From a virus, in the IMG/VR virus record IMGVR_UViG_3300034418_001924, positions 1-33,828 of that record: a DNA stretch of 33,828 nucleotides. One strand, given 5' to 3'. Positions 5,991 through 20,880 of the stretch are shown one piece after another. Both the position numbers and the translations under genes were made by a program. Every line of letters starts with the position of its first letter. Position 1 is the stretch's first letter. The notes beneath the pieces are model-generated. The model saw only the letters and a program-made list of their open reading frames with translations. It was not told the origin of the DNA and did no database searches.

Positions 5991-6079
5991 ATAAAGTAAT
6001 ATGCAGTAATTGTAAAGAAAAAAAATATTTAGATGGAGATACAGGACTTTGCTATGACTGTAACAGAGGACAAATATAG
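5987..6079 (+). CDS. Zinc-ribbon mini-protein (30 aa)
   Basis: C6/C9 and C22/C25 give CxxC-N12-CxxC. The ATG overlaps the preceding TGA, and the gene overlaps the SET-domain gene start at 6054 by 26 nt in another frame. It immediately follows another mini-protein of the same type, so the pair may be a duplication that has diverged. Confidence 0.5.
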   Translation: MNKVICSNCKEKKYLDGDTGLCYDCNRGQI

Positions 6080-6371
6080 ACCATTGCCTGAATATCTTAC
6101 TATTAAACCTAGTGAGATAGAAGGGCTAGGTTTATTTACATTAAAAGATTTAGAAGAAGATAAGTCACTAGGAATGACACATCTTTACAGACATTCAGAA
6201 CCTAATCACTATTTAAGAACACCACTTGGTGGATTTATAAACCATAGTAAAGAACCTAATTGTCATTTAGTAACAGTAACTAGCTTTGGTCCTAGAAAAT
6301 TTCTTTATACCAAAAGAAAAATAAAAGCTGGTGAAGAACTCACAGTAAAGTACACAATGTATGAAGTATAA
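6054..6371 (+). CDS. Minimal SET-domain protein (putative protein lysine methyltransferase)
   Basis: 105 aa. Visible SET signatures, in order: G-L-G-L-F at 24-28; G-G-F-I-N-H-S-K-E-P-N-C at 59-70, matching the NHSxxPN cofactor-binding loop; and G-E-E-L-T-V-K-Y at 93-100, ending in the catalytic Tyr. SET enzymes transfer methyl from AdoMet to protein lysines. The size is close to the shortest known viral SET proteins; there is no pre- or post-SET cysteine cluster, although the zinc mini-proteins upstream are adjacent. ATG 6054 is chosen because AGGA lies 7 nt upstream; ATG 6033 has no ribosome site. The substrate is unknown: a host DNA-binding, ribosomal or phage protein is possible. Confidence 0.75.
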   Translation: MTVTEDKYRPLPEYLTIKPSEIEGLGLFTLKDLEEDKSLGMTHLYRHSEPNHYLRTPLGGFINHSKEPNCHLVTVTSFGPRKFLYTKRKIKAGEELTVKYTMYEV

Positions 6372-8769: not shown

Positions 8770-8842
8770 AGTTTATATCTCCATTCTTACAGTTGCAGGT
8801 TCTTAAAAATGAACCATCATCTGCTACACATATTTTACACAT
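8750..8842 (-). CDS. Cysteine-rich mini-protein in the lysis cassette (30 aa)
   Basis: Six cysteines, C2, C5, C16, C18, C25 and C27, in 30 residues. It begins 2 nt after the stop of the upstream membrane protein and ends 20 nt inside the amidase gene in another frame. No ribosome site of its own is seen, so it would depend on coupling. It could be a zinc-binding peptide or chance coding in a tight gap. Confidence 0.4.
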   Translation of the reverse strand: MCKICVADDGSFLRTCNCKNGDINCECDNS

Positions 8843-8844
8843 AA

Positions 8845-9021
8845 CTACATTACAAATGCAGCTATAACTATAGCTACTGTTCCTACTAATCCTAGTATCT
8901 TATGAAACTCTGACTTATCTAATTTTGTACCTAATTGATTTTCTATCTTGTCTAACTTTTCTAATATCATTATATTTAATTCCTTCTGTGTGAAGCCATT
9001 ACTATATTTTTCGTTAGACAT
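8845..9021 (-). CDS. Small tail-anchored coiled-coil protein, XhlA/holin-like (58 aa)
   Basis: Residues 10-40 are amphipathic (E-L-N-I-M-I-L-E-K-L-D-K-I-E-N-Q-L). Residues 42-58 form one C-terminal membrane helix (I-L-G-L-V-G-T-V-A-I-V-I-A-A-F-V-M). This is the layout of XhlA-type haemolysin or antiholin partners found beside endolysins. The ATG overlaps the previous gene's TAA (TAATG). Together with the r1t-like holin it suggests a two-component hole-forming or timing system. Confidence 0.6.
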   Translation of the reverse strand: MSNEKYSNGFTQKELNIMILEKLDKIENQLGTKLDKSEFHKILGLVGTVAIVIAAFVM

Positions 9022-9170
9022 TATGGTAGGTCATCCTCTCTAAGTGAGATAAATTCCCATTCCTTATCAAAGGATGAACGATTATCCCAATCCCAGTTAC
9101 TTAATCTTTTAATATAAGAACTAATCTCTTTTAAAAAATAACCTATTAAAAATCCTATTATGAAGTCCAT
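9021..9170 (-). CDS. Small N-anchored membrane protein, first gene of lysis cassette (49 aa)
   Basis: One hydrophobic segment at residues 2-13 (D-F-I-I-G-F-L-I-G-Y-F-L) followed by a charged, Trp-containing cytoplasmic tail. The ATG has no ribosome site but lies 7 nt after an extended -10 box (TGC-TACAAT), so the mRNA is probably leaderless. The stop overlaps the next start (TAATG). Likely a lysis accessory. Confidence 0.55.
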   Translation of the reverse strand: MDFIIGFLIGYFLKEISSYIKRLSNWDWDNRSSFDKEWEFISLREDDLP

Positions 9171-9177
9171 AAGAAAG

Positions 9178-9186
9178 ATTGTAGCA
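9178..9186 (-). promoter_or_regulatory. Extended -10 promoter for the lysis cassette
   Basis: Read on the minus strand: TGC-TACAAT, then 7 nt, then the ATG at 9170. No clear -35 hexamer is seen, but the TGn element can compensate. The spacing puts transcription start at or next to the A of ATG. This would let the lysis genes be timed apart from the long structural transcript. Confidence 0.5.
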
Positions 9187-9193
9187 CAGAAGT

Positions 9194-18350: not shown

Positions 18351-19301
18351 TTAGGAAGTTGTTAATCCTGTGATTTTAGCGTGGAAAAGTTCTGGACCAT
18401 ATTCAAGTCCAATTTCACCATAAACTTGGTATTTATAAGCAGCACCTGTTTGAGCGAGTGGCTCAACAAAGAAGTGTCCTTTTCCTGGAATATCCAAGAA
18501 TACTGGCTTACAGAAAGCCAAGTCCACGATTGCTACTTGTCCTGCTGGCATATGTCTGTCAAAGACAATTCCAACTTCACCAAAGTCAGTTTCAATAGTT
18601 GAAATATTGACACCACCCATATTTCTATCTCTTGGTGCAAGTGATAATGCACTTGAATAGATTGAGGATAGTTTTTGCTTTTGGAAGCTATTAGCCATAA
18701 TTACAGGCATCTCAAATGGAGCACCTGAATCTGCCATTAACTTCAAAGCACCATCAACTGCTGCTTGGTCTAATACTGTGTCAGACCCTGCTACCTGATT
18801 GTCAAAGACATTGGTAGAAATAGCTGCCAAGATACCTCTTGTTTTTCTTGCTGTTGATACATCTGTATCTGCTACATATGTACCTTGCAAGAAAGAATAT
18901 TCAATATCTCTTGCAGCTCTTTTTAGAGCCATATCCAACTGGAATGCCAATTCATCTTGAACTGGTTGGTTACCAATAATGGATTGTCCATTAAGGTTTC
19001 CTGTTGCTGCTTGTTTGGTATAAGATACCTGTACACCATATTGCATAATTTGAGTAACATTAATTACTTCACTTCTGCTTCTTTCTGCGAAACTTGGGTC
19101 AGCTCCTTCAACTGCTGCTGTTTGTGCAGCTGCTGCGTTATCAACTGTTTGCCAAGTAAATTGTTTTGATGTAACTGATTTTCCACCAGTTAAACCACCA
19201 ATAGCAGAGAGAAAAGGTGTGTCGTTTGGAGTGATGTTAAATAACTCACCCACATAATTAGGGAGGTCATAAGAATCTCCCATTCCTGATACTGCACCCA
19301 T
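18351..19301 (-). CDS. Major capsid protein, HK97-fold
   Basis: 316 aa. N-terminal G-D-S-Y-D-L-P-N-Y-V-G-E-L-F-N-I-T-P-N-D-T-P-F-L is typical of major capsid proteins of the SU10/DUF5309-like type, followed by W-Q-T-V-D and R-S-R-S-E-V-I-N-V-T-Q-I strands. The later P-V-I-M-A-N-S-F-Q-K-Q-K-L and the C-terminal G-E-I-G-L-E-Y-G-P-E-L-F-H-A-K-I fit the same family. Good ribosome site (AAAGGAGA). It lies 14 nt after the scaffold-like gene, and codon use is less extreme than elsewhere, as expected for high expression. Confidence 0.88.
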   Translation of the reverse strand: MGAVSGMGDSYDLPNYVGELFNITPNDTPFLSAIGGLTGGKSVTSKQFTWQTVDNAAAAQTAAVEGADPSFAERSRSEVINVTQIMQYGVQVSYTKQAATGNLNGQSIIGNQPVQDELAFQLDMALKRAARDIEYSFLQGTYVADTDVSTARKTRGILAAISTNVFDNQVAGSDTVLDQAAVDGALKLMADSGAPFEMPVIMANSFQKQKLSSIYSSALSLAPRDRNMGGVNISTIETDFGEVGIVFDRHMPAGQVAIVDLAFCKPVFLDIPGKGHFFVEPLAQTGAAYKYQVYGEIGLEYGPELFHAKITGLTTS

Positions 19302-19315
19302 TTTTTAAATCTCCT

Positions 19316-19774
19316 TTACTTTTTTTCTAATAGGGCTTTTAATTTGTCTGCTTTGAGAGCTGAACTTGTTTTCCAATCACCATCAGCTTGTGCTTGTGCT
19401 ATCTGGTCATCAATGCCAACAGGTTCTACTGGTACTGATGCTTCTATAACAGTATCTAAGTTTGCTTGGCTAGAAACAACTCTTTGCCTTTGCAATTCTT
19501 GTTGAGTTGCTTGTGGTAGGACTTCGCCCCAACCATACTGTGAAGCAAATTCTTTTATTGCATCTACTTCTAACTCACCTTTATACAAGTCTTTTAATGC
19601 TTTACCTGCACCAGTAGCTGGGTCAAAACCTGCATCTTTAATGGCTGATTCCATCTTCACAGATTTATATTCTTTCTCTACTGCTTCAAGTTCTTTAATG
19701 CGTTCACGCATTGACTTAATAGCATTGTTATCTTCTTGCATATCTTCTACTGTATTTTCTACTTCGTTTTCCAT
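19316..19774 (-). CDS. Capsid scaffolding protein (152 aa)
   Basis: Acidic N-terminus, a coiled coil at about 18-45 (I-K-S-M-R-E-R-I-K-E-L-E-A-V-E-K-E), a central domain with G-F-D-P-A-T-G-A-G-K-A-L-K-D-L, and a basic helical end (L-K-A-D-K-L-K-A-L-L-E-K-K). This is the usual plan of scaffold proteins encoded directly before the major capsid protein. GGAGAG lies upstream of the ATG. It is the first gene after the structured leader, so scaffold and capsid would be co-expressed from the promoter at 19991-20017. Confidence 0.75.
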   Translation of the reverse strand: MENEVENTVEDMQEDNNAIKSMRERIKELEAVEKEYKSVKMESAIKDAGFDPATGAGKALKDLYKGELEVDAIKEFASQYGWGEVLPQATQQELQRQRVVSSQANLDTVIEASVPVEPVGIDDQIAQAQADGDWKTSSALKADKLKALLEKK

Positions 19775-19807
19775 TATCTCTCCTACTCCAAGATTTTCTA
19801 CTAACTA

Positions 19808-19988
19808 CATCATCCTTGGGATAATGATGCGATAGGCGACAAAAAATAATTTAAGAATAACTAGAATTGTCAGCCACTTCTGGGCTATTCAGATACTAGG
19901 CGAATTGTAATACGCAGCTTACACGCCAGTTATAAGCTGGAAGGTGCAGAGTCAATTTATATTCGCAGACTACCACTATGCGACAATT
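19808..19988 (-). ncRNA. Structured 5' leader RNA of the scaffold-capsid transcript (candidate)
   Basis: On the minus strand an outer stem AATTGTC (19988-19982) pairs with GACAATT (19871-19865). An inner stem GCGAAT (19966-19961) pairs with ATTCGC (19905-19900). It encloses a hairpin CAGCTTA/TAAGCTG (19939-19933 with 19921-19915, 11-nt loop). A small hairpin AGCC/GGCT (19886-19883 with 19875-19872) lies beside it. A last hairpin CATCAT/ATGATG (19829-19824 with 19813-19808) stands before the ribosome site. This is a branched fold in an otherwise non-coding 245-nt gap. No known RNA family recognised; it could be a cis-regulator, a packaging-related RNA or a stable trans-acting RNA. Confidence 0.45.
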
Positions 19989-19990
19989 TA

Positions 19991-20017
19991 ATTATACCAC
20001 TATATTTAGTATGTCAA
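19991..20017 (-). promoter_or_regulatory. Late promoter for scaffold and capsid genes
   Basis: Minus strand: TTGACA (20017-20012), 15-bp spacer, TATAAT (19996-19991), with TGG directly before the -10, forming an extended -10. The spacer is short but the elements are consensus. Start near 19984-19988 coincides with the 5' end of the outer stem of the leader structure. Confidence 0.65.
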
Positions 20018-20019
20018 GG

Positions 20020-20880
20020 TTATTCTTCTACTAAACCTAGTACCCTACGACCTGCTCTTGCAGCACTAGGAGTAGGTGTAAATTCAGATAATTGTTGTGC
20101 TTCTAATTTTCTTATTCGTTCTCTTTCTTCAGCAGAACCAAACACTTGTGCTTGTACAAATTCTTCAATATCGTAACCAGGTCTTTGTAACATTCCTTCA
20201 GGAGTTAATTCTTCTTCTGGAGTAACAACTTCATCTGGTTGAAATCTTCTAGTTAAAGATGCTATTCTAGGTACTTCTTCTTCAGCAGCAGCAAATAATT
20301 GTCTTGCTTGTGCTTGTGTCAATCCTGCTCTTTCTAAGGCTTGTGCTTCAGCAGCAGATAATTTAAATCCTTTTAATCCTGCTTCTCCACCTATTTGTGC
20401 AGCAGTTATTCTTCCTTCTATTAAACCTTGCCCAATATCTGGGTCAATAATAGAAGCCAATATTGCTTGGTCATTTAAATCAATTCCAAAATTTGCTGAA
20501 TAATAATCTTTTACAGCAGGAATATTTTGTAATATTCCTTCACTTGCTGTAGCTACTCTCTGTCTAAAAGTATTAGGTGATATTCCTTTTTCTATTAAAG
20601 TTGCAAATGTATTTTCAAAATAATCTTTATTCATTCCATAATCTGCAATAGTTAATCCATAAGATTCTTTAACAGCAGCATAATCAGATTCTGATAATCT
20701 AACTGTTCCATCAGTTCTTTTGTTCTTTGGAAAATATTGTTCATAATCTTCAGATTGTCTAACTTCAGCTAATGCTATATCAGTATTTTGATTTTTAGAA
20801 TATGAGTTTGCATATACCATAACTAATGATTCTGGTAACCAAGGAAGTAAAGCTCTAACTTCTTTTAAAAATTCTTCCAT
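20020..20880 (-). CDS. Putative internal virion protein (286 aa)
   Basis: Helical protein opening L-L-P-W-L-P-E-S-L-V-M-V-Y-A-N-S-Y. Similar openings recur, from memory, in phage proteins next to ejection genes. I-P-A-V-K-D-Y-Y-S-A-N-F-G-I-D-L and G-Q-G-L-I-E-G-R-I-T-A-A-Q-I-G-G-E-A follow. The Ala/Gln-rich end is amphipathic and could line a channel. No catalytic motif. It overlaps the upstream gene by one base and is the last of the internal-protein block before the scaffold promoter. Structural role inferred from position. Confidence 0.55.
   Translation of the reverse strand: MEEFLKEVRALLPWLPESLVMVYANSYSKNQNTDIALAEVRQSEDYEQYFPKNKRTDGTVRLSESDYAAVKESYGLTIADYGMNKDYFENTFATLIEKGISPNTFRQRVATASEGILQNIPAVKDYYSANFGIDLNDQAILASIIDPDIGQGLIEGRITAAQIGGEAGLKGFKLSAAEAQALERAGLTQAQARQLFAAAEEEVPRIASLTRRFQPDEVVTPEEELTPEGMLQRPGYDIEEFVQAQVFGSAEERERIRKLEAQQLSEFTPTPSAARAGRRVLGLVEE

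Follow-up and report, generated by a model that had tools for sequence, protein, structure and literature searches.

A conserved RNA with three covarying pseudoknots precedes the scaffold-position and major capsid genes in a phage lineage

The locus and its promoter

We analysed the IMG/VR virus record IMGVR_UViG_3300034418_001924 over its full 33,828 bp (hereafter, the window). On its minus strand, inside a late block of near-touching genes, a 245-nt gap (19775-20019) separates a gene for a 286-aa protein from a gene for a 152-aa protein. The initial annotation had singled out this gap in a tightly packed block, and the gene spacing agrees: among 25 late-block gaps it is the second longest, after that at 8770-9193, with the third at 67 nt and nearly all others below 70 nt. 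The longest gap (minus strand) contains two neighbouring small ORFs, both about 50 codons long and with hydrophobic stretches, which look holin-like by eye.

The 5′ neighbour of the gap (20020-20880, minus strand) belongs to phrog_8424, a group of unknown function. On the other side, the 152-aa gene (19316-19774, minus strand) lies just upstream of the major capsid protein gene (18351-19301, minus strand; phrog_1328 major head protein, E 5.9e-82). No PHROG matches the 152-aa protein, and we refer to its gene as the scaffold gene because of its position, which in Mycobacterium phage Bernal13 is occupied by a gene annotated as head scaffolding. Elsewhere, the plus strand encodes a 199-aa protein with a T5orf172/MUG113 domain (2318-2917) and a 112-aa protein (6033-6371) whose match to the SET domain (PF00856, E 1.2e-11) covers the end of that profile (positions 63-104 of 105); the domain is, to our knowledge, unusual for a phage. 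ARAGORN found 0 tRNA or tmRNA genes in the window. The GC content of 32.8% and the actinobacterial titles on the genomes of 53 of 80 capsid relatives (manual count) suggest that the host may be a marine actinobacterium; phages of Ca. Actinomarinales have been described with 33.6-36.5% GC (PMC7771536).

A sigma-70-type promoter is predicted at 19991-20017 (minus strand, as are all elements described below), with a −35 TTGACA (20012-20017), a 15-nt spacer and TGG-TATAAT, comprising a TG extension (19998-19999) and the −10 hexamer TATAAT (19991-19996). This bears out the extended −10 promoter proposed in the initial annotation. The whole 27-nt string is found once in the window, where 0 copies would be expected; our consensus promoter scan covered spacers of 16-18 nt, so this promoter is not among its matches. 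Transcription is predicted to start at about 19984, one base ahead of the first helix (P1) of the RNA described below. The proposed coincidence of the start with the 5′ end of a fold holds for this predicted start, and the spacing is kept in relatives, where a −10-like hexamer ends 6-8 nt ahead of the first helix in all 76 distinct upstream 50-mers (exact TATAAT in 55/76, the TG extension in 59/76, and a −35 element with at least 5/6 matches in 46/76).

Occurrence among relatives

An IMG/VR search with the capsid protein returned 79 loci, or 80 including the window's own. Both neighbour genes are held by 74 of them, and the RNA is present in 74/74, ahead of the same scaffold-position gene; the gap measures 235-270 nt in 56 of these loci and 417-1232 nt in the other 18. 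Six loci of the L001-L193 set do not contain the RNA: four are truncated within the scaffold gene, one is a short fragment (L066) and one is a distant relative (L073). A capsid-independent pattern search found the RNA on 113 contigs. Pooling gave 187 occurrences, some of them twice on one contig, and in 170 a scaffold homologue lies 53-68 nt downstream; the other 17 lie within 113 nt of a sequence end. The occurrences reduce to 85 distinct leaders, from which an alignment blind to structure (A2) was made. No conserved small ORF is found in the gap: a stop-free run of 60 codons occurs in at most 1/85 sequences in any reading frame.

A leader model (R1), built with the window's row included, recovers the window element and finds no convincing match in 95 further sources (phage and genome loci whose capsids share no more than 54% identity with the window's, relatives of L073, plus five lineage loci that are truncated or partial), the best being a 55-nt match at E 0.13. 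It likewise finds no convincing match in 83 further IMG/VR loci picked by likeness to distant relatives. Nearly all of these 178 loci are more distant relatives, the capsids of the genome loci being 36-54% identical to the window's. Neither blastn of the leader nor tblastn of the scaffold and upstream proteins gave a match among annotated phages. Because R1 has no convincing match in the 178 other loci, the leader appears, on this evidence, to be a feature of one lineage. The gap ahead of the scaffold-position ORF, measured in 71 of 80 genome loci, has a median of 52 nt and reaches at least 200 nt in nine. The distantly related Propionibacterium phage Doucette (L195) has a 258-nt gap before its scaffold-position gene (2594-2851) that R1 does not match.

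In 18 of the 74 loci (L012, L013, L015, L019, L020, L021, L024, L027, L030, L031, L038, L039, L041, L044, L057, L058, L062 and L069), 182-997 nt of other DNA lie between the upstream gene and the leader. These inserts mostly carry small opposite-strand ORFs, and most end, shortly ahead of the −10 element, in an inverted repeat that is symmetrical and terminator-like (AAATAGTGGG..CCCACTATTT). The region upstream thus looks like an insertion hot spot, and the unit of −10 element and leader is intact and still joined to the scaffold gene in all 18 loci. By eye, A2 also shows variants of the 5′ and 3′ leader halves combined differently across the genomes of the 85 leaders, as if recombination had exchanged domains.

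Covarying helices of the leader RNA

Covariation among the 85 distinct sequences supports a fold of three consecutive H-type pseudoknots and two hairpins, running 5′ to 3′ as pseudoknot A (first stem P1), pseudoknot B (first stem P3), hairpins P4 and P5, pseudoknot C (first stem P6), AGGAG and the start codon. The H-type geometry of A, B and C is ordinary: their second loops measure 0-2 nt and their third loops 3-11, 11-12 and 12-14 nt. Twenty-five invariant columns are unpaired in the model.

In pseudoknot A, P1 pairs UCGCA (19979-19983) with UGCGA (19963-19967) and occurs as CGCA/UGCG, CGGA/UCCG or AGCC/GGCU; its inner three pairs form in 85/85 sequences, pair 2 in 80/85 and the outermost in 66/85. 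The second helix, also covarying, joins the P1 loop (GUGGUAGUC, 19968-19976) to GACUCUGC (19946-19953). Its four core pairs form in 85/85 sequences each, in the versions GUGG/CUGC, GCAA/UUGC, GCAG/CUGC, GUAG/CUGC and GUAG/CUAC, and an outer three-pair part is weaker, with one pair in just 61/85. In pseudoknot B, P3 pairs CAGCUUA (19933-19939) with UAAGCUG (19915-19921) and covaries most clearly at its central pair, which is C-G in 42 sequences, U-A in 39, G-C in 2 and A-U in 2. The second helix pairs GGCG of the P3 loop (19924-19927) with CGCC (19899-19902), and RNAalifold also finds it; all four pairs form in 85/85 sequences, G-C, A-U, G-U, U-A and C-G are all seen, and the versions include GGCG/CGCC, GACG/CGUC, AGCG/CGCU, UACG/CGUA and GGGG/CCCU.

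The P4 hairpin (AGCC/GGCU, 19872-19886) has four pairs in 85/85 sequences and little variation. P5, a hairpin with an AU-rich loop, pairs GACAA (19867-19871) with UUGUC (19838-19842); besides GACAA/UUGUC, relatives have GACUA/UAGUC, an A-U to U-A change in 4/85, and GGCAA with a G-U pair. In pseudoknot C, P6 pairs GCAUCAU (19824-19830) with AUGAUGU (19807-19813), with seven pairs in 85/85 sequences; one of them is U-A in 53, C-G in 29 and A-U in 3 (E 0.003), and the terminal pair is G-U, G-C, A-U or C-G. The P6 loop (CCAAG, 19815-19819) pairs in turn with CUUGG (19788-19792), with covarying versions CCAAG/CUUGG, CCCAG/CUGGG and CACAG/CUGUG; the five pairs form in 85/85 sequences of a hand alignment and in 81.0% of cells of the structure-blind A2, where register slips occur. 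A Shine-Dalgarno sequence for the scaffold gene (AGGAG, 19780-19784) follows within a few bases: AGGAG, AGGA or GGAG and then an ATG start codon lie 3′ of pseudoknot C in 85/85 sequences, and the 3′ end of the pseudoknot is 11-20 nt ahead of the start codon. The bounds drawn initially (19808-20017) omit the 3′ half of pseudoknot C and the Shine-Dalgarno sequence.

With the structure taken from the window's row, 95.1% of 3458 cells in A2 pair, against 33-42% when partners are slid by 1-3 columns. Both sides change in 15 of 42 pairs (3-7 slid, shuffled mean 8.3) and in 152 cells (7-28 slid), and unguided RNAalifold on A2 finds the pseudoknot B helix, P4, P5 and the 7-bp P6. The hand alignment, which puts P1 and pseudoknots A and C back in register and is by construction biased towards the structure, pairs 3689 of 3740 cells. 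Over the 22 both-side-variable pairs the covariation sum is 968, whereas permutations average 48.5 with a maximum of 401, and 0 of 5000 reach the observed sum; the pairing of these pairs is likewise reached by 0/5000 random re-pairings. Parsimony on the leader tree gives about 55 events in which both sides change and pairing is kept, and about 17 breaks, compared with 0-5 and 29-77 for slid partners.

In a home-made, R-scape-like phylogenetic null, just 2 of 44 pairs reach E <0.05. The central pair of P3 is the top of 22,366 column pairs (E 6e-5) and the P6 pair named above is the other, followed by pseudoknot C at 0.059 and P1 at 0.08. The second-best column pair overall (E 0.0026) lies outside the proposed pairs. 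In all, non-paired column pairs score 0.003, 0.03 and 0.05, and those that covary outside the helices are columns 107-127, 12-39 and 108-128 of the hand alignment (E 0.003-0.05); such signals could reflect an imperfect null, lineage effects or unmodelled (tertiary) contacts. Overall, we regard P3, P6 and pseudoknots B and C as very well supported by comparison, P1 and pseudoknot A as well supported, P5 as fairly supported and P4, because it hardly varies, as weakly supported.

The leader also changes more slowly than its flanking genes. The 205 nt ahead of the start codon are, in the median, 84% identical to the window (n=73). The corresponding medians, each with n=72, are 77% in scaffold coding DNA, 60% in the upstream gene and 68% at third positions of identical codons. 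Together with the compensating changes in P1, P3, P6 and the three pseudoknot helices, this strongly supports selection on RNA structure, which the initial annotation had suspected, with compensating changes in homologues named as the check.

The branched fold drawn in that annotation is itself only partly retained. Its 7-bp hairpin (P3), 4-bp hairpin (P4) and ribosome-site hairpin (P6) are conserved, with compensating changes in P3 and P6, whereas its outer and inner stems are not. Counted in the 82 of 85 sequences that could be parsed, the outer 7-bp stem AAUUGUC/GACAAUU has 7/7 pairs in just 12 and the inner 6-bp stem GCGAAU/AUUCGC 6/6 in just 21, none of them with a CGGA- or AGCC-type P1. 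Both stems, attractive as they look in the window, are coincidental in that relatives do not keep them, and in these stems the fold as drawn is wrong; their place is taken by P1 and two pseudoknots absent from it. We also rejected as a candidate off-state an RNAalifold pairing between the Shine-Dalgarno sequence and bases 5′ of P3 (columns 229-232 and 65-68), which overlaps P3 and may reflect register slips near the start codon.

Minimum free energy, another proposed check, does not set the leader apart from shuffled sequence (z +0.31; 125 of 200 shuffles are equally stable or more so). Single-sequence folding misses P1 and pseudoknots B and C or sees them in part, the energy model favours another nested fold (−46.8 vs −17.3 kcal/mol for the nested part of ours, pseudoknots unscored), and in an ensemble blind to pseudoknots the pairing probability of P3 is only about 0.16. 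Folding-energy screens can therefore miss pseudoknotted phage leaders.

Proposed function and comparison with known systems

We propose that the RNA is probably a lineage-specific structured leader that acts in cis at the 5′ end of the scaffold-capsid mRNA and controls translation and perhaps stability, a reading whose structural part comes from comparison and whose functional part we infer. The host-type promoter would start the transcript at the first helix, and the leader would then fold into its three consecutive pseudoknots and two hairpins. Because pseudoknot C lies within the expected footprint of the initiating 30S subunit, we infer an action on translation initiation: its folding would set how often ribosomes start on the scaffold gene and, via coupling, on the capsid gene, and a regulator or ligand on the conserved unpaired bases upstream may also set this frequency. 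Feedback by the scaffold or capsid protein is a first, low-confidence guess at that regulator. The 5′-terminal pseudoknot probably also shields the late mRNA from decay. The initial annotation had offered three roles, and tuning of capsid expression seems to fit best because pseudoknot C abuts the Shine-Dalgarno sequence and 170/187 occurrences stand directly before a scaffold homologue; a separate stable RNA and a packaging aid are improbable.

Other readings draw on the same features. Riboswitches usually precede several unrelated metabolic genes, whereas this RNA is found just ahead of one gene, in one phage lineage, and the gene it would control is structural. A riboswitch-like leader, in which a small molecule from the infected cell binds the 5′ pseudoknots while pseudoknot C serves as expression platform, is thus unlikely in our view, the more so as no Rfam family matches, although such a platform by the Shine-Dalgarno sequence is plausible, 25 invariant columns are unpaired in the model and riboswitches have been reported in marine phages (PMC9004378). 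The constant 6-8 nt between the −10 element and P1 in 76/76 distinct upstream sequences, which would put a pseudoknot right at the start of the transcript, would suit an RNA that mainly stabilises the capsid mRNA, its folded 5′ end protecting a highly expressed transcript and initiation going unregulated. A plain 5′ hairpin would do for this, and three pseudoknots, one of them kept 11-20 nt from the start codon, suggest more; we judge mere stabilisation to be improbable.

A compact, conserved fold with its own promoter might equally be a trans-acting or processed small RNA, one that acts as a sponge or in host takeover, for instance, the scaffold gene then being a passenger. No terminator is seen between the RNA and the scaffold gene, however, the RNA is never away from that gene where the sequence continues, and its last pseudoknot is locked to the Shine-Dalgarno sequence, which leaves this reading a slim chance. 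We give very little credence to a packaging or virion RNA like the phi29 prohead RNA: the element is sited with the head genes, but it has no Rfam match, precedes scaffold and capsid genes, and ends at a ribosome site like a leader. Equally far-fetched is conservation as DNA, through regulator binding sites, or by common descent, rather than as RNA. High identity, the promoter at one end and the covariation of some non-paired columns would fit it, but both-sided pair-keeping changes fall in seven helices, with the event counts given above standing against those for slid partners.

For the head genes of tailed phages, studies of regulation usually look to promoters and gene order. With the leader in 74/74 two-neighbour loci, translational control of scaffold/capsid stoichiometry, as in the leader reading that we prefer, becomes directly testable.

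An RNA family search, proposed with the initial fold, yielded no match for the leader: across all families of Rfam 15 the window has 0 matches at gathering score, and up to E 10 the leader region gives nothing except two chance-like plus-strand matches. The phi29 prohead RNA, a separate RNA of the packaging motor, is also a phage-encoded structured RNA tied to head assembly, but it is not an mRNA leader, and the leader here has no Rfam match to it. The translational operator of E. coli rpsO (S15) mRNA acts by entrapment. It is named as a pseudoknot operator in PMC3014915. Like pseudoknot C it lies by the ribosome site, but it comprises a single pseudoknot with a known protein ligand in a cellular ribosomal-protein gene.

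The dicistrovirus intergenic IRES has a three-pseudoknot architecture and initiates without Shine-Dalgarno sequence or AUG, through a P-site-like pseudoknot. It too is a compact RNA directly ahead of a structural-protein gene (on this IRES, see PMC4132737 and PMC6294563), but it is eukaryotic, its topology is overlapping rather than tandem, and its initiation is non-AUG. The leader here has a Shine-Dalgarno-like core in 85/85 sequences and an ATG start codon, and because of these the parallel, the closest of the bold ones, is at most an analogy. One may speculate, with little expectation of being right, that the three tandem pseudoknots gate the ribosome and so direct structural-protein synthesis, free scaffold or capsid protein locking or unlocking them and thereby coupling synthesis to assembly, in a functional parallel to the IRES that is part of the same doubtful claim.

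Among structured RNAs of marine phages, the glutamine riboswitch (PMC9004378) and the manA and wcaG motifs (PMC2864571) belong to families other than this one, which has no Rfam match, and accompany other genes. The gene 32 operator of T4, T2 and RB69, as described in PMC3014915, comprises one pseudoknot, within a region lying 67 nt ahead of the start codon; A+U-rich repeats come next, and the gene it controls encodes an ssDNA-binding autorepressor. Together with the rpsO operator it is a precedent for the mechanism proposed here. It is alike in that its H-type pseudoknot is phage-encoded and lies in a 5′ leader, ahead of the ribosome site for an abundant phage protein, an arrangement that covariation supports three times over here. 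It is unlike in its distance and in the A+U-rich stretch overlapping the ribosome site, since here the last pseudoknot is 11-20 nt from the start codon, and in its downstream gene, which here is the scaffold-position gene followed by that of the major capsid protein.

A literature search at the level of titles found no paper naming such an RNA; among marine motifs, Ocean-VI (Weinberg 2010) is listed with no Rfam number. A covarying structure in a putative 5′ UTR, flanked on the 5′ side by a promoter (with a predicted start) and on the 3′ side by a ribosome site, probably places the element among structured cis-regulatory phage leaders, and we rate it as a new RNA family of this known kind with an unusual architecture.
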